Source of the DNA: a virus
Length of the DNA stretch: 33,910 nucleotides
IMG/VR virus record: IMGVR_UViG_3300020477_000080
Span: 1 to 33,910 of that record
Strand: one strand, 5' to 3'
Shown here: one piece after another, positions 1 to 33,910 of the stretch
How positions within the stretch are numbered: the stretch's first letter is position 1
How the letters are laid out: each line of letters starts with the position of its first letter
The notes under the pieces: model-generated
Told to the model about the DNA's origin: nothing
What the model saw: the letters and a program-made list of their open reading frames with translations, nothing else
The model's database searches: none
Position numbers and translations under genes: made by a program

Positions 1-178
1 CCTCGGTCGGACGCTGGCCCCAACGCTTCCCAAAAGCCGACATCGCCTTACGCCCACCTGCGGTGAAACCGCCCCAGTTGACTTCGATGTCTTTCATTAG
101 GGACTTCGAAGCCGGGGACCACAGCGGAACTTCCTTGGGTTTCGGGGCAGCCTTGCTGTAGTTTCTGTTATTCCACAT
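1..178 (-). CDS. Unknown protein, N-terminal part, cut by window edge
   Basis: Reading leftward from an ATG at 178-176 there are 59 codons without a stop, running off the window. The product starts MWNNRNYSKAAPKPKEV and is basic, rich in Lys, Trp and Gly, with no domain I recognise. A GAGGAG ribosome-binding site lies 10 nt upstream of the ATG. That site falls within the 16-bp gap and the first bases of the divergent terminase gene, so the two starts are back to back. The clean reading frame, the ribosome-binding site and sensible composition support a real gene. The short visible length leaves doubt. It would be the start of further leftward genes beyond the window. Confidence 0.5.
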   Translation of the reverse strand, partial: MWNNRNYSKAAPKPKEVPLWSPASKSLMKDIEVNWGGFTAGGRKAMSAFGKRWGQRPTE

Positions 179-194
179 TTGCTAGAAACTCCTC

Positions 195-1016
195 ATGCGA
201 AAACGCGACGAGCTAGGACCCCAGTTCCCACTCCGAGTGGTCAAGCAAGAAGCCTTCTGTAAACAGGTGGCTCTCCATGACATTGACGCTACGGAAGCAT
301 ACACCCTTGTCTATGACCAGCAAGACAAGACCCGCGCCCAACGCTCCTCCTCGAGACTGCTCCACAAAGATGCCGTCAAAGACCGTATTGAATGGCTCTC
401 TACCAATCGCTCCCAGCGGGAAATCGAAGTCGTAGTCGAGAACCAGTACGCAAACCAAGAATGGGTAAAGAAGGAACTGGTTTCTCAGTACTACGGCTCT
501 GTCGCAGCAGATGACCGGACCAATGCCCTCAGAGCTCTCAACATGATTGGCACCGATCTGGGCATGTTCGTCCAGCGCAGAGAAGTCCTCACCGGAAAAA
601 TAGACCCCCTACAGGAGAGCCCCGATGTCCTCAAGCGAAGAATCGCCGCAAGCATCTCCCTTCTCTTCCCTGGATCCTCAATCCCTGGAGTCGATGGATC
701 AGAAGGAACTGGCCGAGCTTTACCAGACCCTAGAGAATCTGAAGGGCAACAAGTCGTCGATATACCAGCCCTACCCGAAGCAACTGGAATTTCACGCGAT
801 GGGGAGCGAGAAGAGATTTCGGTGCCTGATGGCAGCCAACCAAGTGGGGAAAACATACTGCGCGGGGATGGAGACGAGCTATCACTTGCAGGGGATCTAC
901 CCCAATTTCTGGAAAGGACGCCGGTTCCTAGTGGCTCCTCGAGCCTGGGCGGGAGGTCCGAACTCGGAACACGTGAGGGACAATCTTCAGAGGATCCTGT
1001 TCGGCCCGCCGGGTGA
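195..1016 (+). CDS. Putative terminase small subunit
   Basis: Probably the DNA-recognition subunit of the packaging motor, inferred mainly from its place directly before the large subunit. The 273-aa product has an ordered helical N-terminal part (about residues 1-143) containing EAFCKQVALHDIDATEAYTL, which fits the helix-turn-helix start of small terminases, and DDRTNALRALNMIGTDLGMF, a run common in that family. From about residue 144 onward it lies entirely over the large-subunit gene in another frame and becomes rich in Gly, Ser, Pro and Glu, so it is probably disordered. No good ribosome-binding site precedes the ATG. The 392-nt overlap with the next gene is unusual. Either the tail is real overprinting or an indel has removed an earlier stop. 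Confidence 0.7.
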   Translation: MRKRDELGPQFPLRVVKQEAFCKQVALHDIDATEAYTLVYDQQDKTRAQRSSSRLLHKDAVKDRIEWLSTNRSQREIEVVVENQYANQEWVKKELVSQYYGSVAADDRTNALRALNMIGTDLGMFVQRREVLTGKIDPLQESPDVLKRRIAASISLLFPGSSIPGVDGSEGTGRALPDPRESEGQQVVDIPALPEATGISRDGEREEISVPDGSQPSGENILRGDGDELSLAGDLPQFLERTPVPSGSSSLGGRSELGTREGQSSEDPVRPAG

Positions 1017-2103
1017 GGAAGGCACCGGGACCATTCCCGGCCATGCCATTGTCAAAATCGAACGCTCTCGAGGCATCAAAAACGCAATCGACTATGCCCT
1101 GATCCGTCATTCCAGCGGCGGCAACTCCTATATCAAGTTCAAATCCTACGACCAGGAGACAGATGCCTGGTCCGGGGACACCCTCACCTTCATCTGGTTT
1201 GATGAAGAGCCCCCTGAAGACAAATGGCAGGAAGGAATCACCCGAACCAATACCGGAGATAATGGAAGTCCAGGCTTCATCTATATGACCATGACCCCAC
1301 TCCTGGGGATGACCAAGATTGCCCGCCGATTCCACCCAAGCCCATCAACCGTAGACTCCGGGGTTGTCCAGATGGGACTTAAAGACGCTCTCCACTACTC
1401 AGAAGACGATATCCGTCAGATTACAGACGCATATCCAGAACATGAGAGGAGAGCCAGAGTTCTCGGCTTCCCCCAATTGGGTGAAGGAGCAGTCTTCTCC
1501 TTCGAGATAGATGACATTACCTGCGAACCCCCCTCCAATGTTCCCTGGTGGCTTACTATCGGGGGAATTGACTTCGGATGGGACCATCCTGCCGCTGCCG
1601 CTGAGCTCAAATGGGACCGAGATGGGGATATCCTCTACGTGACGCGGATATTCCGGCAACGAAAGGCGAAGACGGCGGAAATTGCTTCGGTTTTACGCAG
1701 TTGGGGGGCCGATATCCCCTGGGCATGGCCCCATGACGGCTATGTCCACGACCGACAGTCTGGAAAGTCCGTCTCAGAACTGTTTCGGGAGGAGGGGTTG
1801 GCGATGTTAGAGAACCATGCAACCTTCCCTGATGGATCAATGGGCCTCGAGGCGGGTATCCTCGAGATGAATAACCGTTTTGCGACAGGAAGACTCAAGA
1901 TCTCCAAGAGTTGCCTACCCGTCATCGAGGAAATCCAAACCTACCACCGCAAAAACGGGCGGATCGTAAAGGAAGACGATGATGCCATCTCTGCGGTACG
2001 TTACGCGATGATGATGCGTCGTTTTGGTCGGCTCCCGGTTCCCCCCCAACCCCCCCGAATCTCCGGGGGTCCGACCTACGATCCGTTCCACGTGAAACAA
2101 TGA
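625..2103 (+). CDS. Terminase large subunit (ATPase-nuclease)
   Basis: Motor and nuclease that packages DNA into the procapsid. The 492-aa product has a Walker A motif AANQVGKT (residues 70-77), a hydrophobic Walker B strand ending in FDEE (192-195), and a coupling motif YMTMTP (220-225). The C-terminal RNase H-fold nuclease shows GGIDFG (Asp316), WPHDG (Asp371) and the DDD run at 451-453 before AISAVRYAM, the usual three acidic positions. The ATG at 625 has a strong AGGAGAG ribosome-binding site 5 nt upstream, inside the small-subunit gene, so this start is preferred over the Met at residue 24. Length is normal for the family. A terminase-first order is not T7-like but occurs in many other podoviruses. 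Confidence 0.96.
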   Translation: MSSSEESPQASPFSSLDPQSLESMDQKELAELYQTLENLKGNKSSIYQPYPKQLEFHAMGSEKRFRCLMAANQVGKTYCAGMETSYHLQGIYPNFWKGRRFLVAPRAWAGGPNSEHVRDNLQRILFGPPGEEGTGTIPGHAIVKIERSRGIKNAIDYALIRHSSGGNSYIKFKSYDQETDAWSGDTLTFIWFDEEPPEDKWQEGITRTNTGDNGSPGFIYMTMTPLLGMTKIARRFHPSPSTVDSGVVQMGLKDALHYSEDDIRQITDAYPEHERRARVLGFPQLGEGAVFSFEIDDITCEPPSNVPWWLTIGGIDFGWDHPAAAAELKWDRDGDILYVTRIFRQRKAKTAEIASVLRSWGADIPWAWPHDGYVHDRQSGKSVSELFREEGLAMLENHATFPDGSMGLEAGILEMNNRFATGRLKISKSCLPVIEEIQTYHRKNGRIVKEDDDAISAVRYAMMMRRFGRLPVPPQPPRISGGPTYDPFHVKQ

Positions 2104-2111
2104 GGTAATAC

Positions 2112-2342
2112 ATGGGTGCTCCCGATATTCCGCCGCCCCCGCCGCCTGAACCCCAGGTGATTCCCTACGAAGCGGTCAAGCAGGTCCGAAACATGGACAT
2201 GCTACGACGCCGAAAGCTCCGTGGTGCCACGCTCATCGCTGGGGGCAATAGTTCCCGTCCCCCTGCTCAGACTCTTGGGTCGGCGAGCCTCGTTGGCGGA
2301 TCATCTGGAGGCACAGCCGCCGCGAGCGGGAGCTATACCTAA
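2112..2342 (+). CDS. Small conserved phage protein upstream of portal
   Basis: A 76-aa protein with a proline run near the N-terminus (PPPPPPEP), a basic stretch MLRRRKLRGATLIAGG in the middle and a Gly/Ser-rich tail. Small proteins of this build, with Pro-rich start, Arg-rich centre resembling RRRKGRAATILTG, and Gly/Leu tail, occur next to portal genes in many podoviruses. Their role is not established and they may be minor virion or assembly proteins. A GAGG ribosome-binding site sits upstream of the ATG, and the stop overlaps the portal ATG by one base (TAATG), showing translational coupling. Family assignment is from memory of the pattern. Confidence 0.75.
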   Translation: MGAPDIPPPPPPEPQVIPYEAVKQVRNMDMLRRRKLRGATLIAGGNSSRPPAQTLGSASLVGGSSGGTAAASGSYT

Positions 2343-4021
2343 TGCCCCTCACAACTCCCCGTTCCATTCGTCGGCACTTTGACCGGCTGAAATCAGACCG
2401 AGGACGCTGGGAGTTTCTCTGGCAGGACATTGCCGACTACGGGATCGGACGAAGGCTCTTCACGCGCCAGCCTACGGCCACCGGAGAAGGCAACCGCACC
2501 TACCGGATCTACAACAACACCATGATGGTGGCGAATGACCTGCTGGCTTCAGGTCTGCACAATCTTCTTACCAGTACCGCGAACCGTTGGTTTCATCTTG
2601 AACCCGACAACCAGATGCTTCTTGAGCTTCCCGAGGTTGCAGACTGGTTTTCTACTGCGGAAGATATCCTTTTCTCCCTCGTAGAGCGCCCCGAAGCGGG
2701 ATTCCACCCGCAAGTCCATGAGGTCTACAACGACATCGCGGCCTTCGGGAATGGGTCCCTCACGACCCTACGCGCTCCGGGGGAAGGCATCTTCTTCCAA
2801 GCCATGCCCCTGATGGAGACGTATATCGACGAAGGACCTGACGGAAGAATCAATATGATCTTCCGGCACTGGCGCTACAACGCTCTCCAGATCCAGCAAC
2901 GATATGGCGAGGGAGCCTACGAACCTGCTGATAAAGCCATCGCAGGCGACGACTTGGCTCGGCAGTTCTGGTTGCTTCAGGCATTCATTCCTAACGAAGT
3001 CTTCGACTATGAGAAGAGCTTCGGCCCTCAAGCATCGCAGGTCAAAGCTGTCACTCTGGACTATGAAGGCATGAAGGAAATAGAGACGACCTATTTCCGA
3101 GAAATGCCGATTGCATTCGCTCGGTGGAACAAAGACCCAGGCGAGCTTTATGCCCGAGGACCTGGAGTCCAAGCTCTCTCCGATCAGCGAATGCTCAATG
3201 AGATGCAGAAGACCACACTCGAGGGCGCGCAAAAGGCAGTCAATCCGCCGCTCATGGTCCCTGATAATGGCTTCATCACCCAAATGGATATGAGCCCAGC
3301 AGGGCTTACGGTGTATCGCGCAGGAACCCCAGACCCCGTGAGAGAACTCTATACCGGACGGTCAATGGGGACAGACCTTGGAATGCAAATGATCCAAGGG
3401 GTCCAGACGAATGTTCGAGCTGCTTATCATTACGAGATGCTCCAGCTTCTCCAAGACCCAAGGATGTCTGCCACCCAAGTTCTTGAGCTCTCCTCTCGTA
3501 GTCAGCAGATCCTCTCTCCTGTGATTGGCCGCATCCAGGCGGAACTGCTTGAACCCGTTATCGAGCGATCCTTTAACCTAGCCATGCGTATGGGGGCCAT
3601 GCCTCCTGTGCCTGAAATCCTGGCTGGAGAGCGTCTCAACATACGGTACGTGTCTCCTATTCAGCGCGCTCAGCGCGCAGGAGAAGCCCAGGCTTTGCTC
3701 CAGGCAATGAACTCTGTGATCCAACTTGCCCAATTGGACCAAACAGCACTCGACTCATTGGATTCGGACAAGATCACGCGGTTCCTCTTCGAAGCATGGG
3801 GAGTGCCGCCTGACTTGCTGCGAAGCGAGGATCTTGTCGAAGAGATGAGAACACAACGAGCACAGATGGCTGCTCAACAAGAACAACAAGAGACACTCAT
3901 GGAAGGCGCAAAAGCTGCCGCCCCCCTCCTGAGTGCAGCAGGTGGAGTCGAAGGACTTGGAGGACTTTTAGGTGGACCAGGCGGAGTTGGCGGACAAGGC
4001 GAAGGACCTGGCGTTCAATAG
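2342..4021 (+). CDS. Portal protein (head-to-tail connector, T7 gp8 type)
   Basis: The 559-aa product forms the ring at the capsid vertex through which DNA enters and leaves. The N-terminal region (SIRRHFDRLKSDRGRWEFLW, then IADYGIGRR) and the middle run FARWNKDPGELYARGPGVQ with the following ALSDQRMLNEMQK helix are hallmarks of the podovirus head-tail connector family. The C-terminal region is Gln/Ala-rich and ends in Gly-rich residues, typical of the flexible portal end. It is coupled to the preceding gene by TAATG, and its last 50 nt overlap the next gene. Length matches the family (about 500-560 aa). Confidence 0.95.
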   Translation: MPLTTPRSIRRHFDRLKSDRGRWEFLWQDIADYGIGRRLFTRQPTATGEGNRTYRIYNNTMMVANDLLASGLHNLLTSTANRWFHLEPDNQMLLELPEVADWFSTAEDILFSLVERPEAGFHPQVHEVYNDIAAFGNGSLTTLRAPGEGIFFQAMPLMETYIDEGPDGRINMIFRHWRYNALQIQQRYGEGAYEPADKAIAGDDLARQFWLLQAFIPNEVFDYEKSFGPQASQVKAVTLDYEGMKEIETTYFREMPIAFARWNKDPGELYARGPGVQALSDQRMLNEMQKTTLEGAQKAVNPPLMVPDNGFITQMDMSPAGLTVYRAGTPDPVRELYTGRSMGTDLGMQMIQGVQTNVRAAYHYEMLQLLQDPRMSATQVLELSSRSQQILSPVIGRIQAELLEPVIERSFNLAMRMGAMPPVPEILAGERLNIRYVSPIQRAQRAGEAQALLQAMNSVIQLAQLDQTALDSLDSDKITRFLFEAWGVPPDLLRSEDLVEEMRTQRAQMAAQQEQQETLMEGAKAAAPLLSAAGGVEGLGGLLGGPGGVGGQGEGPGVQ

Positions 4022-4268
4022 GCAAGGTCAATATCGAGGTTGTTTTGATACGGATTCGGGACATTTTGTATTGGGGGATTTATTCCATATCTGTAACGCC
4101 GGTCAGACTACTTATCCGCCTCATGGCAATCGGGACATGTCACTCCTCGCAGAAGGAAGGCGTCAAGTATGGCTACACATCCAGGCCATGCTCAATGCAG
4201 ATGAATCCGACCTCTACCGATTGGCCCAAGAGAGGGTCCGAAACGAACGGGAGATGATGAACCGATGA
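3972..4268 (+). CDS. Bbp19-like phage protein
   Basis: A 98-aa protein whose core (FDTDSGHFVLGDLFHICNAG, then EGRRQVWLHIQAML) matches the small family typified by Bordetella phage BPP-1 Bbp19, which sits between portal and scaffold in many podoviruses. Its function is unknown. I choose the GTG at 3972 because a GGAGG ribosome-binding site (3959-3963) lies 8 nt before it. This start overlaps the portal gene by 50 nt. The end overlaps the scaffold start as ATGA. No membrane segment or catalytic motif is visible. Confidence 0.8.
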   Translation: MDQAELADKAKDLAFNRQGQYRGCFDTDSGHFVLGDLFHICNAGQTTYPPHGNRDMSLLAEGRRQVWLHIQAMLNADESDLYRLAQERVRNEREMMNR

Positions 4269-5203
4269 GTGAAGGAAATGTAATTGCGTCCGAGCCCGCC
4301 GCAGTTCCCGAGGCACTCGCCTCCGTAGAAGCTGCGCCGCCCCCCGAAGCACCGGAACCTGCACCGGAAGCACCCCCCCTCAGTCCATTTGAAATCTCAG
4401 TCAATGGGCTACCCCCCGATCTGAGAAACCATCCGAGCATGTCAGACTTCAAGGACTTCGAAGGTCTGGCAAAGAGCTATGTGAACCAGCAGAGTCTTCT
4501 GGGCAAAGAACGAATCGCAAAGCCCAGCGATGACTGGTCAGATGAACAATGGACAGAGTTCTTCGGAACCGTTGGTCGTCCCGCGACTGTCGAGGGCTAC
4601 ACCTTTAAAGAGCATCTGAACGAAGAGACATTCGAAAATGCCAGCGTCCTTCTGGATCCGATGACAGAAGCCTTCCACGCGGCTGGGCTCTCCGATAAAC
4701 AGGCTTCCAAAGTAGCCGAGGCGTACCTCGGTACAGTCAATGCCCAACAGGAGCAGATGGCAACTGCGGCAGCAGAAGGGGTAGAAGCAGCCCAGGCCCA
4801 GCTAAAGCAGGAGTGGGGATCGGCTTACGAGGCCAAGCTCGAGGCTGCTAATGAAGCGGCATCGAGTCTCTTTGGAGGTCAACTCACCGACTTCCAGTCC
4901 ATTCGCTTGAGTGATGGCACATTCCTGGGGGACAATCCACTCATGGTGCGACTTCTCGCTGCGCTTGGAGAGAGCGTATCCGAGGGCAGCGTGCATTCTG
5001 GTGGTGGATTTGCAACCCTAACCCCCGAAGATGCAGCTTCCGAGCTTAAAACCTTGGAAGGGGATGCGAATTTCAGGGAGGCATGGCTGGACCGTGACCA
5101 CCCGCAACATGAAGAGGCTTTGAAGAGGAGGTTGCAACTCAGAGCGATGATGGATCCGGGCAATGCTACGAATCCCATCAGCTTTGATGCTCCAAAACTT
5201 TGA
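4265..5203 (+). CDS. Capsid scaffolding protein
   Basis: A 312-aa protein directly before the major capsid gene. It begins with an Ala/Pro/Glu-rich, probably disordered stretch (about residues 5-42). This is followed by a region (LPPDLRNHPSMSDFKDFEGL, KSYVNQQSLLG) and a helical Ala/Gln/Glu-rich segment (about residues 150-200) that resemble podovirus scaffolding proteins. Such proteins guide procapsid assembly and leave before or during packaging. The ATG overlaps the previous stop (ATGA). No protease domain is visible, and there is no separate prohead protease gene nearby, as in T7. Confidence 0.88.
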   Translation: MSEGNVIASEPAAVPEALASVEAAPPPEAPEPAPEAPPLSPFEISVNGLPPDLRNHPSMSDFKDFEGLAKSYVNQQSLLGKERIAKPSDDWSDEQWTEFFGTVGRPATVEGYTFKEHLNEETFENASVLLDPMTEAFHAAGLSDKQASKVAEAYLGTVNAQQEQMATAAAEGVEAAQAQLKQEWGSAYEAKLEAANEAASSLFGGQLTDFQSIRLSDGTFLGDNPLMVRLLAALGESVSEGSVHSGGGFATLTPEDAASELKTLEGDANFREAWLDRDHPQHEEALKRRLQLRAMMDPGNATNPISFDAPKL

Positions 5204-23312: not shown

Positions 23313-25306
23313 CCGTATCTGTCACAACTGTATACGTGGATGCCGCAGCGGGAGCTGCGACCATTCCGTTCAACGTCCCTCATTTCTCCGTAGACGACGT
23401 GAAAGTCTATGAGATCGACAACACCACTGGGGCAGTGACTACTCTTGTACGTGCGGTTAATTATGAGCACGCATGGACGACTCCTCCTGCTACCCGTCAG
23501 CTACCAGATACAGCGACGATCACTCCCGGTCCTAGTGGTGCACCTACTACCGTCCCTGTAGGGAAAACCTGGAGGGTAATCCGAAGGACTCAAGTCACAC
23601 AGGAAACTGGGCTCACTCCTGGTGATCCCTTCCCTGCTGCTGCACTGGAGGGGGTGCTCGACAAGCAGACACTCATAGCCCAGGAGGCACAGGCTAATTC
23701 GGATACAACAGTTAAGGCACCCGACTCTGAGTGGGGGGTGGCAAATCTTACCCTGCCGAGCATCGCTGCCCGTGCCGGGAAGTATCTGAGCTTTGGTGCC
23801 GATGGTTCTGTTGCGGCTTCTGATGCTGCTATTTCAGTAACGGGTATCAGTACCTTTTTCGAGACTCTTATTGGGAAGGGGGATGCTGAAGCTCTCGGAG
23901 CTCGAGACGCTGCCAGCTACCTCCTCCTTCGAAGCAGTCCTTATGGTGCAGGTACAGGGGATAGCCTTGTTGAAGTGACAGATGTCATTGGTGTCGGACA
24001 TCCCAGCACACTGATGTCTACCGATTATGTCGGCACTCTCCTCTTCATGCAGCAGACGGGCAGGATCTTCATTGGTAAGAATGGAACTGGTGGACCTGCT
24101 GGTGACTGGACTGATTGGTGGACAGAGTTTGGTTTGCCTCAAGCCGCAACGCTTTCCAATCCTTACGGATATGAGGGTAGGCTTTATGTGGATACCACCA
24201 CCAAGGAACTCAAGCGTGGCACAGGTGGTGGATGGGAAGTTATCTCTGGCCCCGAACCCCAGACCTACCAACGGGGTGCCATCCATGGGATGGAGATTGA
24301 GTGGAAAGACCCTGGCGTTGATTATGGGCATGGCACAGGAGCAAGATCCCAAGTCATGCTTACTGTCAAAGCAGGTGGATGCCGGTTGCATTCCGCTAGT
24401 AGTAAGGATGCCTTCGATGCAACTCTGGCAGTAGATATGCAGAAGGACCTGCTCTTCAATGGATGGGAACCCGGTGCTTATGTACCTGGCACGCCTGGAG
24501 CGGGAAACGCCAAGCCTAACAATTTGTTTGGTGGTGGAACTGGAATAGGAACCGATCCCCTCATAGCCGGTCGCATTGTGGGTGTATTTATCATCAGCGA
24601 TGGTACCAATGTCGATTGGGGAATTGATGTTCTCGATGATGCTACGAACTTACGTAACGAGGCAGCGGACGATCCCGCTTGGGGGTTCGTTGCGTATTGG
24701 CGGCGCATAGGATGGGTTGCTCTACAAGATGATCCCCGAACGATGCTAGCTGCTGCTGCCATTAACGTCGTCCCCTTTGTACAGAACGGGGACACGTTCA
24801 ATATCGTAGGTCAGTCGGCATGGACACCGGGTTCAGGAACTCCTTCTGCTGATGAAGTAGGGTCGGGATGCCATTGGTGGAATCCAGTAGCCGATTACGA
24901 AGCGGCTGGTACTGGGGGTGGGGAGATTGTTTGCATGGCCCCTCCAGGTGTTCAGGCCCAGGTATCTCTTGCTGAAGGGACTACAGGGACAGGGATACCG
25001 AATGGCACTTATTTACGTGTGTATCCGGTGGTGACTTCCACCTTCCAGGCGGGCAAGAGTCGGCATCCCGCTTCACTTGCGACCGAAGCCTCGATTGTGA
25101 GTGGATGGGGCCTACCGGACACACGCCAAAACACGATCAAAGATGAGAATTCTTTGACGCCCGCTGTGGGTGTTCTAACAACCGCAACAACAGCCGATTC
25201 TGCTCACAAGCGTTCGGCTGTATGGTTAGCTTCGAATACTTCCACGACTTTTGCAGTAGTGACCTACGTGCTCTCATGGATAGATGACCGTGGACGATTT
25301 GAATAA
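23309..25306 (+). CDS. Tail fibre protein with T7 gp17-type N-terminus
   Basis: A 665-aa protein. Residues 1-135 follow the T7 tail-fibre virion-attachment domain: TVYVDAAAGAATIPFNVPHF, a DDVKVYEI strand, VNYEHAW, then VGKTWRVIRRTQVTQETG and a terminal LIAQEAQAN helix. The rest is Gly/Thr/Asp-rich and beta-like with no chaperone domain visible. Aromatic and Gly-rich repeats such as GPAGDWTDWW probably contribute to receptor binding. No glycan hydrolase or lyase motif is recognised. The ATG overlaps the preceding stop (ATGA), so it is coupled to the giant gene. Confidence 0.9.
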   Translation: MTVSVTTVYVDAAAGAATIPFNVPHFSVDDVKVYEIDNTTGAVTTLVRAVNYEHAWTTPPATRQLPDTATITPGPSGAPTTVPVGKTWRVIRRTQVTQETGLTPGDPFPAAALEGVLDKQTLIAQEAQANSDTTVKAPDSEWGVANLTLPSIAARAGKYLSFGADGSVAASDAAISVTGISTFFETLIGKGDAEALGARDAASYLLLRSSPYGAGTGDSLVEVTDVIGVGHPSTLMSTDYVGTLLFMQQTGRIFIGKNGTGGPAGDWTDWWTEFGLPQAATLSNPYGYEGRLYVDTTTKELKRGTGGGWEVISGPEPQTYQRGAIHGMEIEWKDPGVDYGHGTGARSQVMLTVKAGGCRLHSASSKDAFDATLAVDMQKDLLFNGWEPGAYVPGTPGAGNAKPNNLFGGGTGIGTDPLIAGRIVGVFIISDGTNVDWGIDVLDDATNLRNEAADDPAWGFVAYWRRIGWVALQDDPRTMLAAAAINVVPFVQNGDTFNIVGQSAWTPGSGTPSADEVGSGCHWWNPVADYEAAGTGGGEIVCMAPPGVQAQVSLAEGTTGTGIPNGTYLRVYPVVTSTFQAGKSRHPASLATEASIVSGWGLPDTRQNTIKDENSLTPAVGVLTTATTADSAHKRSAVWLASNTSTTFAVVTYVLSWIDDRGRFE

Positions 25307-27175: not shown

Positions 27176-27393
27176 TTAGAACAATCCTTATGTTCCTGAT
27201 GCTCGTAAGCAATGTCGGGTGTGCCGGTTTGGCATTTGATATGGATCCGTCACGAGGAGATTATGCCGTGACCTTCAGCGCCAAGGACTGCATAGACACC
27301 ACCAATGTGGTGGGTTCTTTTGTCTATGCAATTCCCTGGGCTGGACCGAAGGCTGTTGCTGTCTTCGGATGTCCTGCTGAAGTACGCCCTTAA
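27172..27393 (+). CDS. Small lipoprotein-like protein, candidate outer-membrane spanin
   Basis: A 73-aa protein with a hydrophobic leader MIRTILMFLMLVSNVGC and Cys17 at a possible lipoprotein cleavage site. The -1 Gly fits, but Asn at -3 is atypical, so lipidation is uncertain. Two more cysteines follow (KDC, FGC). Its position after the coiled-coil membrane protein and holin suggests an o-spanin. It is less Pro-rich than Rz1. The ATG overlaps the holin stop (ATGA). Its stop codon shares bases with the stop of the opposing endolysin gene (27390-27393). Confidence 0.6.
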   Translation: MIRTILMFLMLVSNVGCAGLAFDMDPSRGDYAVTFSAKDCIDTTNVVGSFVYAIPWAGPKAVAVFGCPAEVRP

Positions 27394-27794
27394 ATAGCAG
27401 AGAGCGGCTCTCCAACTCCGACCATCTGCACATGGAGTTGCTCCGGTGCATAGTCGGAACCGATATAGTATCGGTAACCCTCTCGTGTAATAGCATCACA
27501 CGCATCCTCTCGTCCTATGCGAGAGTCGAACATGATGTCTACAGCACATCCCCATCCAGCACCGAAGAGGTGACGTGATTCATCATGTCCCCCTACTTCC
27601 ATGTTCCGTTTGACAGTGCGGCATCCACCAGTGACAGAGCCACGGTGGGTCAAACAGACCTTCCAAACGAACCCAAGAAACCTTTCGATACGATCCCAAT
27701 CCATATCGGAAGGAGCGGGATACCAGAAGATACGTGCTTGGTCTGTCATACTCTTGATCGTATTACCAGGAGGCAGGCTTCCTCGGCTACTCAT
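27390..27794 (-). CDS. Endolysin, M15-family peptidase
   Basis: A 134-aa enzyme predicted to cut peptidoglycan stem peptides. It carries the zinc-site pattern of M15-type D-Ala-D-Ala peptidases and L-Ala-D-Glu endolysins: SRHLFGAGWGCAVDI supplies His75 and Asp86, and LHVQM supplies His121. The AGWGC insertion between the His and Asp is longer than the usual SxHxxGxAxD spacing. The start at 27794 has an AAGGAG ribosome-binding site and overlaps the preceding gene's stop by 8 nt. It has no signal peptide, so it needs the holin. Unusually, it is on the opposite strand from the other lysis genes. Confidence 0.8.
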   Translation of the reverse strand: MSSRGSLPPGNTIKSMTDQARIFWYPAPSDMDWDRIERFLGFVWKVCLTHRGSVTGGCRTVKRNMEVGGHDESRHLFGAGWGCAVDIMFDSRIGREDACDAITREGYRYYIGSDYAPEQLHVQMVGVGEPLSAI

Positions 27795-28148: not shown

Positions 28149-28538
28149 CTATCCTTTCTTATCAGAGTTCATTTGTTTGATGGCATCTTGTAATTGCTGC
28201 ATCCCTCGAGGGTCAGAGGTACGAGGCTCTTGAGGTAACTCACGACTCTTGAACTCAGGAGCCTTGGGCTTCACTCCCCCTCGTGGTTTCCAGCCTTCGA
28301 ACTTAGCACCTTGAACTACCCAGTTCTGAACCGTGGCATACCAGTTCACACGTTGGACTCCGTTCATTACGTGCCAGCGTAGGCACTCTTCCATCTTCCG
28401 TCTGATCTCAGGGATGTTCTTATAGTGGGGAGGTAGGTCACCAAGGTCTACCTTTTTCCGTACCCACTCTACAAGTTTCTTTCGTTCAGGTTTTTCTAGT
28501 GTTTCGGGAGCGTCAGTCAGTCCTTTCTTCTTCGGCAA
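28149..28538 (-). CDS. Unknown protein with replication-protein-like Trp motif
   Basis: A 129-aa basic protein. The segment MEECLRWHVMNGVQRVNWYA followed by TVQNWVVQGAKFEGW (Trp66 and Trp73) resembles the motif near the C-terminus of lambda-O-like and DnaD-like phage replication proteins (a helix, then dW, then nW). Paired with the upstream winged-helix gene, which it overlaps by 26 nt in another frame, the two may do the work of one replication initiator or helicase loader. It starts at TTG with an AAGGAG ribosome-binding site about 9 nt upstream. The similarity is short, so function is uncertain. Confidence 0.65.
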   Translation of the reverse strand: MPKKKGLTDAPETLEKPERKKLVEWVRKKVDLGDLPPHYKNIPEIRRKMEECLRWHVMNGVQRVNWYATVQNWVVQGAKFEGWKPRGGVKPKAPEFKSRELPQEPRTSDPRGMQQLQDAIKQMNSDKKG

Positions 28539-28833
28539 AGTCTAGTTCTCCTTGAATACGTCTGTTGATTCTCCATGTGGAAGCGTTTCGGTTTGTGATC
28601 CTACACTTCCGCGTTCCAGCCGGAACGATATAGCCTGCTCGTTCCATTTCAGACATTCGTTTCCAGGCCCCATCCGGAGCACCGTGATTAGCAATGAGTT
28701 CCCGTGCAGTAGGGGCTTCTGCATCCTTGACTAGTTCTGATTTGAACAGAGCCAAGAGCACTTTGAACTGGAGCTTGTTCAGTGTGCCGTCCCCGCGAAT
28801 TGCGTGGAAAGCATCAATTGAATTCTGTCGCAT
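28513..28833 (-). CDS. Winged helix-turn-helix DNA-binding protein
   Basis: A 106-aa protein. Residues 19-90 follow a winged-helix pattern: LQFKVLLALF helix, TARELIANHGAPDGAWKRMS with the recognition helix at about 52-66, MERAGYIVPAG hairpin, then RKCRITNRNASTWRI as the wing. Such domains occur in phage regulators and replication initiators. The ATG at 28833 has an AGGAGGAGAAC ribosome-binding site. A 14-bp hairpin lies immediately upstream of that site in the mRNA, which could control its translation. It is the first gene after the 480-bp structured region. Confidence 0.7.
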   Translation of the reverse strand: MRQNSIDAFHAIRGDGTLNKLQFKVLLALFKSELVKDAEAPTARELIANHGAPDGAWKRMSEMERAGYIVPAGTRKCRITNRNASTWRINRRIQGELDFAEEERTD

Positions 28834-28846
28834 GTTCTCCTCCTAA

Positions 28847-28909
28847 TACTCCACACACAGAGGCGCAATGATATTTGATAGGAGCATGAATGCCCCTGTG
28901 TGTGGAGTA
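28847..28909. repeat. 14-bp perfect inverted repeat (hairpin)
   Basis: TACTCCACACACAG at 28847-28860 pairs perfectly with CTGTGTGTGGAGTA at 28896-28909. Pairing continues inward after one mismatch (28862-28864 with 28892-28894). In the leftward RNA the stem ends a few bases before the AGGAGG ribosome-binding site of the winged-helix gene. No U-run follows, so it is not a standard terminator. Confidence 0.8.
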
Positions 28910-28917
28910 GAAACTTG

Positions 28918-28973
28918 GGAGGAGGGCAAGACAGTACAAGGTACCCGTCGGTACGATGTGCTTACCCTCCTCC
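28918..28973. repeat. Nested hairpin with 9-bp outer stem
   Basis: GGAGGAGGG (28918-28926) pairs with CCCTCCTCC (28965-28973). After one mismatch AAG pairs with CTT. Inside, GTACC and GGTAC (28941-28954) close a CGTC tetraloop. It begins 8 nt after the previous hairpin. Confidence 0.7.
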
Positions 28974-28976
28974 GTT

Positions 28977-29070
28977 GGAGGTCCTCTCTAGTCTTACAAG
29001 AGAAACCTTCCGTCGGATCTAGGTAGCTAAGCTAGACCCCCCAGGAGGAGCGCCGATTAAGGGTGGCTCC
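28977..29070. repeat. Three consecutive smaller hairpins
   Basis: 28977-29011: GGAGGT pairs with ACCTTCC (one bulge), with TCTCT and AGAGA stacked inside around a 9-nt loop. 29015-29038: TCTAG and CTAGA around a 9-nt loop, with GG/CC outside a bulge. 29047-29070: GGAGC and GCTCC with further inner pairs. Each alone is modest; the tight succession is the notable point. Confidence 0.5.
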
Positions 29071-29220
29071 CCGTGGGTTCTCTCAATCTTGACCGTCAGG
29101 AACGGGAGGGCAGTGTCACATGAGAGGCTAGCAATCAATGGAGTGACTGATGCACCGTATGTTACCGGTCTGATTGAGAAGAAATGGTGGCGGCTCAGGA
29201 TCCTTGAGACTTATGCGAAA

Positions 29221-29290
29221 CCATACTTGGAACAAGGATCCCGTTGGGACAAGGGTAGCCGCCAGTACCCCCAGAAGGACCCAAGTATGG
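29221..29290. repeat. 10-bp inverted repeat enclosing two hairpins
   Basis: CCATACTTGG (29221-29230) pairs perfectly with CCAAGTATGG (29281-29290). Inside are TCCC/GGGA around GTT (29239-29249) and GGGTA/TACCC around 8 nt (29253-29270), giving a possible three-way junction. It lies just downstream of the Rad52-family gene in the leftward transcript. No U-run follows. Confidence 0.6.
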
Positions 29291-29316
29291 CCTCCTACAG
29301 TGTAGTCTGGTGTGAG

Positions 29317-30153
29317 CTACCCGTCGAACTGGTAGATCTTCTCTTCGAACATCTCGAATTCGTTCTTTGCGATGTGTTCTTGTGCGTGAGCTACAAACTC
29401 AGGCATCCTTCCGCGTCCAGGCACCACAGGTTTTCCCAAATCTTTACAAACAGACTGAAAGACTTGGAAGCCATGGACTTTGTACTCCTCTCCATGTGTA
29501 CGACACACAGCGAGAAGTCTTCTTGCCTGTGATTCAGTAATCCCATCACCGTTAGTCTTCGGTGCGGGTGTCGATTGTTCTTGAGATGGTACTTCGAACT
29601 CACTCGGTGCAGATTCTTCTTGGTTGTAGAGATCCGGAGGTTCAATGTCTGAGTCAATCTGCATTGACTCTTCCTTAGCACCGAGGAGTTTCGCCAAACG
29701 TGCACGTTCTTTAGGTGAGATTACTGAGCTCCTTCCTCTTGTCTCTACTTCAACCCAAGGAGTTTCGAGTGCGTAGAGGTAGCGACCAATGCCCCACTTC
29801 ACAGCGGCGCGTTTGAATGCGTCACTGTGTCGGCCTTTGTCAGCCTCGACCTTGGTGCTACCTGCTGCGTCCTGCTTGTGGACCCAAGTCTCTTTGATGG
29901 GACACCAGATGCTAATGGTTGCAACACAGACAGGACCGTTGTCTTGTTGCGAGGAGGTCCAGTTACCTGCACCTACTACATCATCCAGTCTCTCCATTAC
30001 GTCGCGAGCGTCGATGTAGGCTAGTGCCATTCCGCGTGTCTTGTCCTTGTTCAAGCTCTGTACTCTCCATCTCACCCGGTTCGGGGGAAATGCCTGGAGC
30101 AATGATTCGGAAATCTGGTCCCAGTAGTTCTTCAAGTTGTCTGAGTTCGGCAA
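29317..30153 (-). CDS. Rad52/Rad22-family single-strand annealing protein
   Basis: A 278-aa recombination protein predicted to anneal complementary single strands. The Rad52-like core runs from about residue 17 to 135: AFPPNRVRWRVQS, then AYIDARDVMERLDDVVGAGN, GNWTSSQQD, and KGRHSDAFKRAAVKWGIGRY followed by LYALETPWV. These are the signature positions of the family. The C-terminal half is an acidic, Ser/Pro/Gln-rich linker and a small helical end. It begins at TTG with an AAGGAAG ribosome-binding site 7 nt upstream; no ATG occurs before residue 42. The first 173 nt overlap the upstream small gene in another frame. Confidence 0.9.
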   Translation of the reverse strand: MPNSDNLKNYWDQISESLLQAFPPNRVRWRVQSLNKDKTRGMALAYIDARDVMERLDDVVGAGNWTSSQQDNGPVCVATISIWCPIKETWVHKQDAAGSTKVEADKGRHSDAFKRAAVKWGIGRYLYALETPWVEVETRGRSSVISPKERARLAKLLGAKEESMQIDSDIEPPDLYNQEESAPSEFEVPSQEQSTPAPKTNGDGITESQARRLLAVCRTHGEEYKVHGFQVFQSVCKDLGKPVVPGRGRMPEFVAHAQEHIAKNEFEMFEEKIYQFDG

Positions 30154-30289: not shown

Positions 30290-30302
30290 GGAGGTTCTCC
30301 TT
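30290..30302. promoter_or_regulatory. 13-bp spacer holding two opposed ribosome-binding sites
   Basis: Between the leftward ATG (30289-30287) and the rightward ATG (30303-30305) lies GGAGGTTCTCCTT. GGAGG serves the rightward nuclease gene 8 nt downstream, and the complement of CTCCTT (AAGGAG) serves the leftward gene. There is no room for a promoter, so both transcripts must start inside the opposing genes and overlap. Confidence 0.7.
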
Positions 30303-30761
30303 ATGAACAGTAGACAGAAGGGAGCTCGAGGTGAACGCGAACTCGCTAAGGTACTGACTTCGTTAGGGTTTCCAGCACGTAGAGGGGTACAATACAGTGG
30401 TTTGGAGGGGAAGGATGTGGTGGCCCCGTCGTTACATGGTCTGCACATAGAGTGCAAACGGGTACAACGTCTCAACCTGGATGCTGCAATGCAACAGTCA
30501 GTTCGAGACGCAAGACATGGGGAGGTACCCGTGGTCATGCACAGACGGGACCACCACGAATGGATGGTTACCGTTCATCTGGATCAGATGATTCTGTTCG
30601 CTCAACTTCTTCTTCAAGGGCAAGAAACCAGTCATCATCCTTCGGAAACTGTTGAAGAGCTAGCAACAGATCAGAGTGTACCTCTTCAGGAAGCATCATC
30701 AACAGATCATAAATCCGTTCAGGACCAAAGCTCTCCCGAAGAACGTCAACCACAATCTTGA
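30303..30761 (+). CDS. Holliday-junction-resolvase-like PD-(D/E)XK nuclease
   Basis: A 152-aa protein with the archaeal-Hjc or phage resolvase-like nuclease pattern: RQKGARGERELAKVLTSLGF (Glu11 or Glu13), GLEGKDVVAP (Asp38), LHIECKRVQ (Glu50-x-Lys52), then AAMQQSVRDARHGEVPVVMH and HEWMVTV. It probably resolves branched recombination or replication DNA before packaging. The catalytic core ends by about residue 105; the rest is a Gln/Ser/Glu tail. It is the only rightward gene inside the leftward arm. Its last 194 nt are antisense to the 3' end of the neighbouring leftward gene. Confidence 0.85.
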   Translation: MNSRQKGARGERELAKVLTSLGFPARRGVQYSGLEGKDVVAPSLHGLHIECKRVQRLNLDAAMQQSVRDARHGEVPVVMHRRDHHEWMVTVHLDQMILFAQLLLQGQETSHHPSETVEELATDQSVPLQEASSTDHKSVQDQSSPEERQPQS

Positions 30762-30930
30762 GTTGATCTTCTGGGTCCAGCTTGAGTACTGCGTTGCTTG
30801 CTCTTTTCAGTTGGCTGTGTCGTTTCGTTTCAGTTTCGTCCACGACTAGACCAGATCTTTCTAATTGTGGGATGATTGAGTGCGATGTTTGTTCCTTCTC
30901 CCAGTAGTTTAGAGAAGCGTCTCTTTTCAT
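30568..30930 (-). CDS. Unknown protein, 3' end antisense to nuclease gene
   Basis: A 120-aa, charged, helical protein; LDPEDQLKIVVDVLRESFGP and IYDLLMMLPEEVHSDLLLAL are well-formed amphipathic helices, followed by an acidic end. No family recognised. The start is uncertain: ATG at 30930 is proposed, while a GTG at 30963 or ATG at 30951 would add up to 11 residues, and none has a clear ribosome-binding site, suggesting coupling to the upstream gene, which it overlaps by about 100 nt. Its 3' third lies opposite the nuclease tail. Confidence 0.6.
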   Translation of the reverse strand: MKRDASLNYWEKEQTSHSIIPQLERSGLVVDETETKRHSQLKRASNAVLKLDPEDQLKIVVDVLRESFGPERIYDLLMMLPEEVHSDLLLALQQFPKDDDWFLALEEEVERTESSDPDER

Positions 30931-32044
30931 CGTCGCCGCTGCCGAAGCCATTGCGATTGGCACGCTTGCGTTGGTGGTCAGTTGTAGATGCCATGAGTTC
31001 TCGTGCTTCTCGCATCATTCCGTCTACCACTGTGCGTCTGCGGCGAGCTTGGATCAGTTGAGCAAGTTCTTCTTCTTCGGCTTTCGACCCGTATCCAAAG
31101 TCCAGGTATTCAGTGATCGCACTCAGACAATCCAATCCTGTTTGCCCATCGTTCCCTGTTCCGTCAAGGAAGAGAGACTCAAGCAAGTCGAGTTTCCTCT
31201 CGTAACGTGCACGTGTAGAAGCAGCCCGAGGTTTCTTGCTGTTGTATAGGGCAGTACGCTTCTCTTCCAGTGAATGCAATACATCGGTGGCTTTCAAAAG
31301 AAAGGCAGAGAAGTAATTGGAAGCTGTCATGAGACTCATCTCAAGGTGTTCAAGTTGAGTAAAGAAGAGTCTCTGGTATTCCATTTGTTTCAGGTCTGAA
31401 AACTTCCTGTCTTCTAGTCGTGCGATGATCTGTGCTGCATTGCGTGTATGCCGACGGTAGTTCATCAACCCGTTAGCCTTGAGTCCAGGGAACTGGTTGG
31501 TACAAACTAGGTCTTGGGTGAGTACCGAGTCCCAGTATGCAGTGACTCCATCGACTCCAGTTCGGATACATCTCTTCGCCTCGAAGACTCTGTTATCACG
31601 TCCGTGTCTTTCAATCGTGAAGTCCAAGGATGGGATACTAAATTGGAATATCCCTCGAGTGCCATTGTTCACAGTGCCAGCACAGTCAGGTTTAATGTAT
31701 CCCTGTCTGACCTGCTCCCATACGTTGTCGTAGGTAGCTTGCCACTGCATGATGCCGAAGTCTTTCCCAACGATGGGACCCAGGAATTCTCCAGTGTCCT
31801 CGTTACGGATGGCCTTGTAGTTCTTGAGCTCAGGCTTACCAGTCAGGTGCTCAAGATTTACAGCGCCCAGTTCGAAGTTCATACCTGAAATCTCGGCAGC
31901 TTCTTCTGGACTCTTAGCATCTGAGATATCCCAGAGTGCTCCACCCCAAGGGATGCGTGCTCGAGCTACCTCGGTGCGCTCAGCTTCGATAGTTTGTCCT
32001 ACTTCTTCCAGTCGTTCCGGTTCAATCCTGTCGTTCCAACCCAT
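30830..32044 (-). CDS. DUF932 family phage/plasmid-like protein
   Basis: A 404-aa protein of the DUF932 (phage/plasmid-like, TIGR03299) type, found beside recombination and replication genes of phages and plasmids; biochemical role is not established. Visible family marks: KAIRNEDTGEFLGPIVGKDF (77-96), the FDFTI-like strand DFTIERHG, FEAKRCIRTGVDGVTAY, and DSVLTQDLVCTNQF (172-185). A long helical, basic C-terminal region follows. The ATG at 32044 is chosen because AGGAGG stands 6 nt upstream; the frame is open further but crosses the hairpins at 32081-32149. Confidence 0.82.
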   Translation of the reverse strand: MGWNDRIEPERLEEVGQTIEAERTEVARARIPWGGALWDISDAKSPEEAAEISGMNFELGAVNLEHLTGKPELKNYKAIRNEDTGEFLGPIVGKDFGIMQWQATYDNVWEQVRQGYIKPDCAGTVNNGTRGIFQFSIPSLDFTIERHGRDNRVFEAKRCIRTGVDGVTAYWDSVLTQDLVCTNQFPGLKANGLMNYRRHTRNAAQIIARLEDRKFSDLKQMEYQRLFFTQLEHLEMSLMTASNYFSAFLLKATDVLHSLEEKRTALYNSKKPRAASTRARYERKLDLLESLFLDGTGNDGQTGLDCLSAITEYLDFGYGSKAEEEELAQLIQARRRRTVVDGMMREARELMASTTDHQRKRANRNGFGSGDDEKRRFSKLLGEGTNIALNHPTIRKIWSSRGRN

Positions 32045-32173
32045 GTCGATCCTCCTAGTTGTCTGTTTATTTGTATGGGTGAGAGGTCCACCAACACCCC
32101 GATATCCCAACAGTAGAATTGATGGACCTCTCTGTGGGTACATCCCACAAACCCATCACCCACAAAACCAGTA
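32045..32173. promoter_or_regulatory. Leader of DUF932 gene with two hairpins
   Basis: A 129-nt gap. GAGAGGTCCA (32081-32090) pairs perfectly with TGGACCTCTC (32123-32132) around a 32-nt loop. Immediately next, TGTGGG (32133-32138) pairs with CCCACA (32144-32149) around a 5-nt loop. In the leftward mRNA the hairpins end about 37 nt before the DUF932 start. No obvious sigma70 promoter and no U-run is seen. Confidence 0.55.
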
Positions 32174-33334: not shown

Positions 33335-33640
33335 TCAATCAGAGCTTCTGATTGGTGTCGTTTTGAGTTTCCGTTCGGCTTGAACAGCGGCATAGAAAGC
33401 TTTCATGTTCCGTCGTTCGTCACGCCAATTCTGGAAATACGAACTTGTCTTTGCCAATCCCCATGCAGCAAAGCCCACGATATAGACGGGCAAGAGCATG
33501 AATGCAGCAATCAAACCATTGAAGAGAATTCCACCCAGGACAAGTGCCACGGTAATGAAACCAAGGTTATTGCGGTGTATGAGTTTGTTGATTCGTCCGT
33601 GGAACCATTCCATTGTGATGTCTTCTCGTTTGAGTTTCAT
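33335..33640 (-). CDS. Small membrane protein, unknown function
   Basis: A 101-aa protein with two adjacent membrane segments (about residues 26-45 and 46-65) flanked by basic ends, and a charged helical C-terminus (NWRDERRNMKAFYAAVQAER). The ATG at 33640 has AAGGAG 7 nt upstream; a longer reading to 33682 lacks a ribosome-binding site. It is the first gene of the visible leftward operon, following a 270-nt leader. Early phage membrane proteins are often exclusion or host-control factors, but nothing here shows this. Confidence 0.7.
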   Translation of the reverse strand: MKLKREDITMEWFHGRINKLIHRNNLGFITVALVLGGILFNGLIAAFMLLPVYIVGFAAWGLAKTSSYFQNWRDERRNMKAFYAAVQAERKLKTTPIRSSD

Positions 33641-33690
33641 TTCGTTCTCCTTATAAAAACGTACACAAATACAATTCGTCACAGAGATAA

Positions 33691-33771
33691 GAGAGAAGAC
33701 GAGGTTATTCGGGATAAACGTCTTTATTCCGTTAGGGCCGTGCCCAGCCCAAGTGCCACTCGTCTTCTCTC
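33691..33771. repeat. 13-bp inverted repeat enclosing two hairpins
   Basis: GAGAGAAGACGAG (33691-33703) pairs perfectly with CTCGTCTTCTCTC (33759-33771). Inside, 33710-33718 pairs with 33723-33731 (9 bp, one G-U on the plus strand) around a CGTC tetraloop. TTAGGGC (33732-33738) pairs with GCCCAA (33747-33752) with one bulge. The whole is a possible 81-nt three-way junction. The G-U pair would be an A-C mismatch in the opposite strand, weakly favouring a plus-strand RNA. Confidence 0.6.
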
Positions 33772-33826
33772 CGTTAGCGTAGTAGTTAATGCCTTACGTC
33801 ATATCGGGAACGCTCTCCCCCCCCGA

Positions 33827-33886
33827 GAAGCCCGGCAGCTTTGCTGCCAGGGCTTCGAGGGTGCGGGTTGGTGCCCGCTTGCGGGC
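33827..33886. repeat. Two GC-rich hairpins near right edge
   Basis: GAAGCCCGGCAGC (33827-33839) pairs with GCTGCC-A-GGGCTTC (33843-33856), 13 bp with one bulged A and a TTT loop. GCCCG (33873-33877) pairs with CGGGC (33882-33886) around CTTG. Neither is followed by a T-run on the plus strand. Confidence 0.65.
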
Positions 33887-33910
33887 CAGGTACTACGAAG
33901 CCGAAGGCCG

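Follow-up and report, generated by a model that had tools for sequence, protein, structure and literature searches.

An orphan structured RNA element in the early operon of a phage, with a plausible cis-regulatory role

GOLLD and ROOL are large, ornate RNAs that have families in Rfam and structures determined by cryo-EM (PMC12286853). The RNAs of type III toxin-antitoxin systems, such as ToxI and CptI, are pseudoknotted, lie upstream of a protein gene, and are found in phages (PMC3475682, PMC4627078). Here we describe E1, a 483-nt structured non-coding interval in the leftward operon of a phage, that shares features with these and other systems but matches none of the families that we searched.

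Like GOLLD and ROOL, some of which are carried by phages or prophages, E1 would be a large, dense non-coding RNA with a complex fold. Unlike them, it lies within a protein operon, where it abuts a ribosome-binding site, and was found in one phage lineage only, and it had no sequence or structure match to either at any threshold tested. The original prediction had raised a link to these two RNAs; covariance-model searches (cmscan, Rfam 15) gave no match to them at gathering thresholds or at E≤10. E1 resembles ToxI and CptI in being able to form a pseudoknot and in lying immediately 5' of a protein gene. It differs from the type III systems in having no tandem short pseudoknot repeats, and the 106-aa protein encoded downstream matched no PADLOC or Pfam family.

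E1 also resembles translational riboswitches and RNA leaders, in that a tract could pair with either an anti-sequester segment or the ribosome-binding site and is preceded by a compact domain able to form a pseudoknot. Unlike translational riboswitches, E1 lies between cistrons, has no match to an Rfam aptamer (gathering thresholds and E≤10), and has a predicted open form that is much more stable. In T7-like phages, long hairpins at intercistronic gaps are RNase III processing sites. At E1, too, long hairpins lie between genes of an early phage mRNA, but E1 is far longer than those sites and has crossing helices. Membership of E1 in GOLLD, ROOL, the type III antitoxins, or the ribozyme classes tested (Rfam models of group I introns and self-cleaving ribozymes, none of which matched) is not supported.

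The phage genome and the non-coding interval

The window, the whole stretch of DNA that was analysed, is the 33,910-base virus record IMGVR_UViG_3300020477_000080. Its left arm is read rightward and encodes TerS, TerL, portal, a protease-like protein, the major head protein, and a tail protein. Its right arm is read leftward and has mostly unassignable genes. The portal is ~33% identical to those of HTVC010P-kind Pelagibacter phages. The phage is a podophage, with portal and tail proteins that show distant similarity to their counterparts in HTVC010P-type phages. Where the two transcription arms converge (27200-27400) there is a strong hairpin with 23-nt arms that may be, and probably is, a terminator. 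Among the scanned proteins of the 38-kb genome (see below), the Rad52-like protein encoded next to E1 was the sole DNA-metabolism protein recognised, with no DNA polymerase, helicase, primase or integrase, and a search for tRNAs and tmRNA found none. A winged-helix reading of the 106-aa protein was not confirmed (the structure model was poor, pLDDT 43).

Table 1. Features in and around E1 (window coordinates).
Feature	Position	Strand	Details
E1, 483-nt structured non-coding interval	28834..29316	-	Rad52/Erf-like gene upstream, 106-aa gene downstream
Rad52/Erf-like single-strand annealing protein, upstream gene	29317..30153	-	Pfam PF04098, phrog_1097
106-aa gene downstream of E1	28513..28833	-	phrog_1123, E 2.6e-7
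TIGR03299/DUF932-like protein	30830-32143	leftward arm	weak matches
P1a CCAUACUUGG	29281..29290	-	partner 29221-29230
P2a UGGCGGCU	29257..29264	-	partner 29188-29195
P3a GGAUCCUUG	29233..29241	-	partner 29198-29206
P1b CCAAGUAUGG	29221..29230	-	inside P3 loop; pairs back to P1a across P2 and P3
P3b CAAGGAUCC	29198..29206	-	P3, 9 perfect pairs
P2b AGCCGCCA	29188..29195	-	P2, 8 perfect pairs
Middle domain	29081..29179	-	closed by 8-bp helix 29172-29179/29081-29088
Possible switch segment 1, CUCCUCCU	29043..29050	-	complements ribosome-binding site and 28967-28973
13-bp hairpin, possible switch segments 2 and 3	28918..28973	-	9 perfect: GGAGGAGGG 28965-28973 / CCCUCCUCC 28918-28926
18-nt-arm hairpin, 14 perfect bp	28847..28909	-	immediately upstream of ribosome-binding site
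Ribosome-binding site of 106-aa gene, AGGAGGAG; possible switch segment 4	28837..28844	-	complements 28918-28924 and 29043-29050
E2, second structured non-coding gap, same operon	30290..30567	-	z of -6.1 (minus strand) and -1.8 (plus strand)
E0, third structured gap, cut by window end	33683..33910	-	follows gene 33335-33682

E1 is present in two assemblies. A structure-guided pattern scan of GTDB found contig PBMF01000031.1 (38,477 bp; L250/L251 in our numbering), from a MAG labelled Chloroflexi bacterium SP22. The contig is the same phage, 99.8% identical over 10.3 kb of the right arm and opened at another point. Both of its ends match window positions 23563-23951, with 10 mismatches between the ends, indicating that the map is probably circular and ~38.1 kb. 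The window is missing ~4.2 kb of this map (L250:10350-14526), and the proteins encoded there match no Pfam or PHROG family. All 483 bases of E1, and also E2, were identical in the two assemblies. The lack of SNPs in E1 is uninformative, as ~1 would be expected in 483 nt at 0.2% divergence; the presence of an unchanged E1 in an independent assembly indicates that the region did not arise as an artefact of assembly. Rightward from position 27 kb, 11 SNPs in called genes were scored and most of them (8) were synonymous, supporting the gene calls. The left end of the genome (window 1-4974 versus L250:14527-19500) differs by 0.9%, compared with 0.2% elsewhere. The Chloroflexi bin may hint at the host phylum and proves nothing.

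E1 is non-coding. Scores from a codon model trained on the phage's own genes were mostly in the non-coding range in all six frames, and no frame was coding-like along E1. The reading frames tested had no match to a Pfam or PHROG family, and no conserved protein was found across the region in these scans. These results uphold the original claim that 28834-29316 contains no gene. The Rad52-like frame remains open for 62 codons past its TAG stop (29131-29319, minus strand), with scores that are not clearly coding-like, and this is probably due to chance. A plus-strand reading frame of 147 aa (29089-29532) spans the right half of E1.

The gap had also been called unusual. It is the longest in the window, but it is not the only one of its kind: the gaps at 30290-30567 and from 33683 to the window end are equally structured. 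E1 has a G+C content of 53%, and its 3' boundary is exactly the AGGAGGAG-AAC-ATG of the downstream gene, with the start codon at 28833. A site scan found nothing resembling a terminator within E1 or a promoter close to it, consistent with read-through transcription. From the order of the genes, we infer that E1 is transcribed within the leftward message.

Folding of E1

E1 folds better than shuffled controls and does so most strongly as the minus-strand RNA. The minimum free energy of the minus strand was -199.5 kcal/mol (z -6.4; 0 of 100 dinucleotide shuffles as good) and the plus strand had a z of -3.6 (1 of 100 shuffles as good). With 200 shuffles of the whole of E1, the values were -6.3 for the minus strand versus -4.6 for the plus strand, so E1 beat its controls in the two-strand comparison proposed at the outset. 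Two coding segments from the same operon that served as controls had minus-strand z values of -2.1 and -0.6. In a scan of the window with 160-nt sliding windows, those in E1 ranked third and fourth among 844.

The strand bias was not uniform along E1. The two hairpins at the 3' end (28834-28974) were equally strong on the two strands (z of -6.9 and -6.7). When the 18-nt-arm hairpin was excluded (28915-29316), z was -4.7 for the minus strand (0 of 200 shuffles as good) and -1.9 for the plus strand (8 of 200), and the first 137 nt, the pseudoknot domain, had a z of -2.35 versus 0.08. The structure excess is thus largely minus-specific outside the hairpins adjacent to the ribosome-binding site, which favors RNA over DNA structure. 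We think it likely that the functional form of E1 is the minus-strand RNA. The large structured RNA that was originally suggested, here placed on the leftward transcript, is backed by this bias together with the pseudoknot and the absent coding signal.

Every inverted repeat that had been listed was found in some form by our repeat search. The two stems with imperfect arms are 28847-28864/28892-28909 (18 nt, 94%; 14 perfect) and 28918-28930/28961-28973 (13 nt, 92%; 9 perfect). The perfect stems are 29221-29230/29281-29290 (10 bp), 29198-29206/29233-29241 (9 bp), 29188-29195/29257-29264 (8 bp), and 29081-29088/29172-29179 (8 bp). Helices and the stretches between them take up most of the 483 nt. 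The stems had been described as nested; this did not hold for the 10-bp stem, which crosses the 9-bp and 8-bp stems as in a pseudoknot.

The 5' third of E1 can, according to these pairings, form a pseudoknot of three perfect helices in which P1 crosses P2 and P3. On the minus strand the arms begin a short way past the Rad52 stop codon and follow one another, from 5' to 3', as P1a, P2a, P3a, P1b, P3b, P2b. The P1/P2 crossing had -38.3 kcal/mol in stacks, which 0 of 1000 shuffles reached in the 137-nt domain, a domain chosen post hoc. A generic test for crossing helices over the full 483 nt was weaker (3 of 1000), and its best pair was a different one. Statistics for the pseudoknot and for the possible switch described below were computed after the pattern had been seen.

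The 3' end of E1 contains a possible ribosome-binding-site switch. The C/U-rich segment CCCUCCUCC (28918-28926), an anti-Shine-Dalgarno tract, complements the upstream GGAGGAGGG (28965-28973), in a hairpin with an inner GUACC-GACG-GGUAC hairpin as cap, and it also complements the ribosome-binding site of the 106-aa gene. Pairing of the tract with the upstream copy of the site is predicted to be strongly favored over pairing with the site itself. In the predicted fold of the isolated 3' domain, the ribosome-binding site was open (-67.7 kcal/mol). When GGAGGAGGG was blocked, the predicted fold sequestered the ribosome-binding site (-55.0 kcal/mol). The predicted folds therefore include mutually exclusive pairings that involve the ribosome-binding site. 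The open form is favored by ~12.7 kcal/mol, so a switch would need a strong trigger or kinetic control. In context, the predicted accessibility of the site is ordinary for this phage. Two copies of CUCCUCC and one of GGAGGAG upstream of the ribosome-binding site were matched in 3 of 5000 shuffles, a count made post hoc, and G/A-rich sites and C/U-rich tracts easily pair by chance. The switch is a concrete proposal rather than a result.

Searches for relatives and other structured gaps

We found no diverged homologue of E1 by DNA, neighboring proteins, pattern, or covariance model. Infernal searches against Rfam 15, a check proposed with the original prediction, gave no family above the gathering thresholds. 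At E≤10, the matches were miRNA hairpin families (E 0.1-5, look-alikes) and a retroviral element, and we attribute these to chance. No homologue of E1 was detected by blastn among 50,697 phage and 72,556 plasmid records, and none of E0 or E2 among the phage records. Single-sequence patterns from the 106-aa, Rad52-like, and DUF932-like proteins found no relative in IMG/VR. The neighboring genes had been suggested as a route to relatives, and this route yielded none: a Rad52 profile found 80 loci, of which 0 share E1 or other neighbors. Relatives identified through TerL and portal carried no detectable Rad52 relative.

Pattern scans with P1b and P3b in IMG/VR and GTDB contigs gave only chance matches besides the same phage. 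The repeated motif GTNCCRACGGGWWCCTTGT, used as a scan pattern, had four matches; these lacked E1-like sequence and shared genes, and we read them as chance as well. We built covariance models for three elements (the pseudoknot domain, the 3' domain, and E2) and searched 100 loci with them, as well as 294 genomes from the same class as the MAG. For the 3' domain and E2 models the phage itself was the only match; the pseudoknot-domain model gave weak matches besides the phage. The two best of these, L259 and L260, appear to be in or across coding sequence, have no P1, and are Rfam-negative; we rejected them. Covariation among homologues is the usual proof of a new RNA class. With no diverged homologue, the case for E1 is built on the thermodynamics of a single sequence, on strand bias, and on the pseudoknot and the position.

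E1 is accompanied by two other structured gaps. E2 is upstream of a 102-aa gene and has a compact multibranched predicted fold with a 14-bp closing stem and no Rfam match. E0 is complete in the second assembly (L250:10121-10390), with a z of -6.5 on the minus strand and -5.6 on the plus strand and several long perfect stems, including one of 13 bp (GAGAGAAGACGAG/CTCGTCTTCTCTC). E0 also has a run of eight Gs, beside which there is an indel between the two assemblies. A likeness between E1 and E2 (18 of 23 around ACGGGTACC) was not significant (E 3.6). On the minus strand, E1, E2, and E0 together contain 13 copies of ACGG, ~3.6 times the 3.6 expected. In E1 it is often part of CC-RAC-GG, and 5 of the window's 11 minus-strand copies of CC[GAC]ACGG are in E1.

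Possible functions of E1

E1 is an orphan structured RNA in the early operon of this phage, and a cis-regulatory role for it is plausible. Our tentative reading, to which we give somewhat less than even weight, is that E1 acts in cis, as an intercistronic RNA element in the podophage's leftward early mRNA, between the Rad52-like gene and the 106-aa gene. The 3' C/U-rich tract would pair with either the upstream GGAGGAGGG or the ribosome-binding site of the downstream gene, and the pseudoknot and middle domain would bias this choice by way of a protein, a ligand, or timing during transcription. The choice would set translation of the 106-aa gene, and the stacked hairpins may also stabilize the message or mark it for processing. 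We infer the control of translation and any trigger, and this switch mechanism specifically is possible but doubtful.

The same helices could instead belong to a trans-acting non-coding RNA of which E1 would be the body, either excised from the leftward transcript or transcribed within it. Such an RNA would act in the manner of the large ornate phage RNAs, as a scaffold, a decoy, or a regulator of host machinery. The dense helices with a pseudoknot, a length like that of large phage RNAs, the presence of three structured gaps in one operon, and the preference for the minus strand are all consistent with this. We consider it rather unlikely, as E1 runs straight into a ribosome-binding site, has neither a promoter-like nor a terminator-like site of its own, matches no Rfam family, and has no detectable copy elsewhere in IMG/VR or in phage, plasmid, or class-mate genomes. 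Somewhat less probable still is that the hairpins are RNase III-type sites for processing or stability that split the early message, with the fold and pseudoknot having no other role. Long near-perfect hairpins at intercistronic gaps, and the recurrence of similar structured gaps in the operon, would be expected of such sites; 483 nt with a crossing pseudoknot far exceeds what processing needs, and processing does not predict paired Shine-Dalgarno and anti-Shine-Dalgarno tracts.

It is very unlikely that E1 is a DNA element, such as a replication origin, a primosome assembly site, or a recombination site, with hairpins in single-stranded or extruded DNA. A recombination gene adjoins E1 and the 3'-end hairpins are equally strong on both strands. 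However, the rest of E1 is minus-biased, its G+C content is 53%, and its repeats include no tandem iterons. The original prediction had offered an origin as an alternative, and both the strand-biased structure outside the end hairpins and the 38-kb map, in which no skew extremum falls at E1, argue against it. Decay of a former gene could account for the open Rad52 frame and the 147-aa frame, and is highly improbable: codon scores are mostly non-coding, no family matches, and decay makes neither a minus-biased fold nor three perfect crossing helices.

Compact phages seldom give 0.5 kb to non-coding sequence. E1, E2, and E0 together would devote ~1 kb of the early operon of a 38-kb phage to at least three structured non-coding elements, one of them with a large three-helix pseudoknot and a ribosome-binding-site switch. 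That they make up one or more new classes of large, structured RNA in phages is a candidate reading that we think less likely than not. The phage belongs to a lineage for which we found no cultured member and in which almost no early genes are annotated. The short anti-Shine-Dalgarno switch that we propose for E1 could be tested directly in a reporter, for which the identity of the host is not needed. If confirmed, E1 would add a large RNA class that is absent from Rfam. The structured RNA and the two further gaps suggest that early gene expression in this phage is controlled at the level of RNA.
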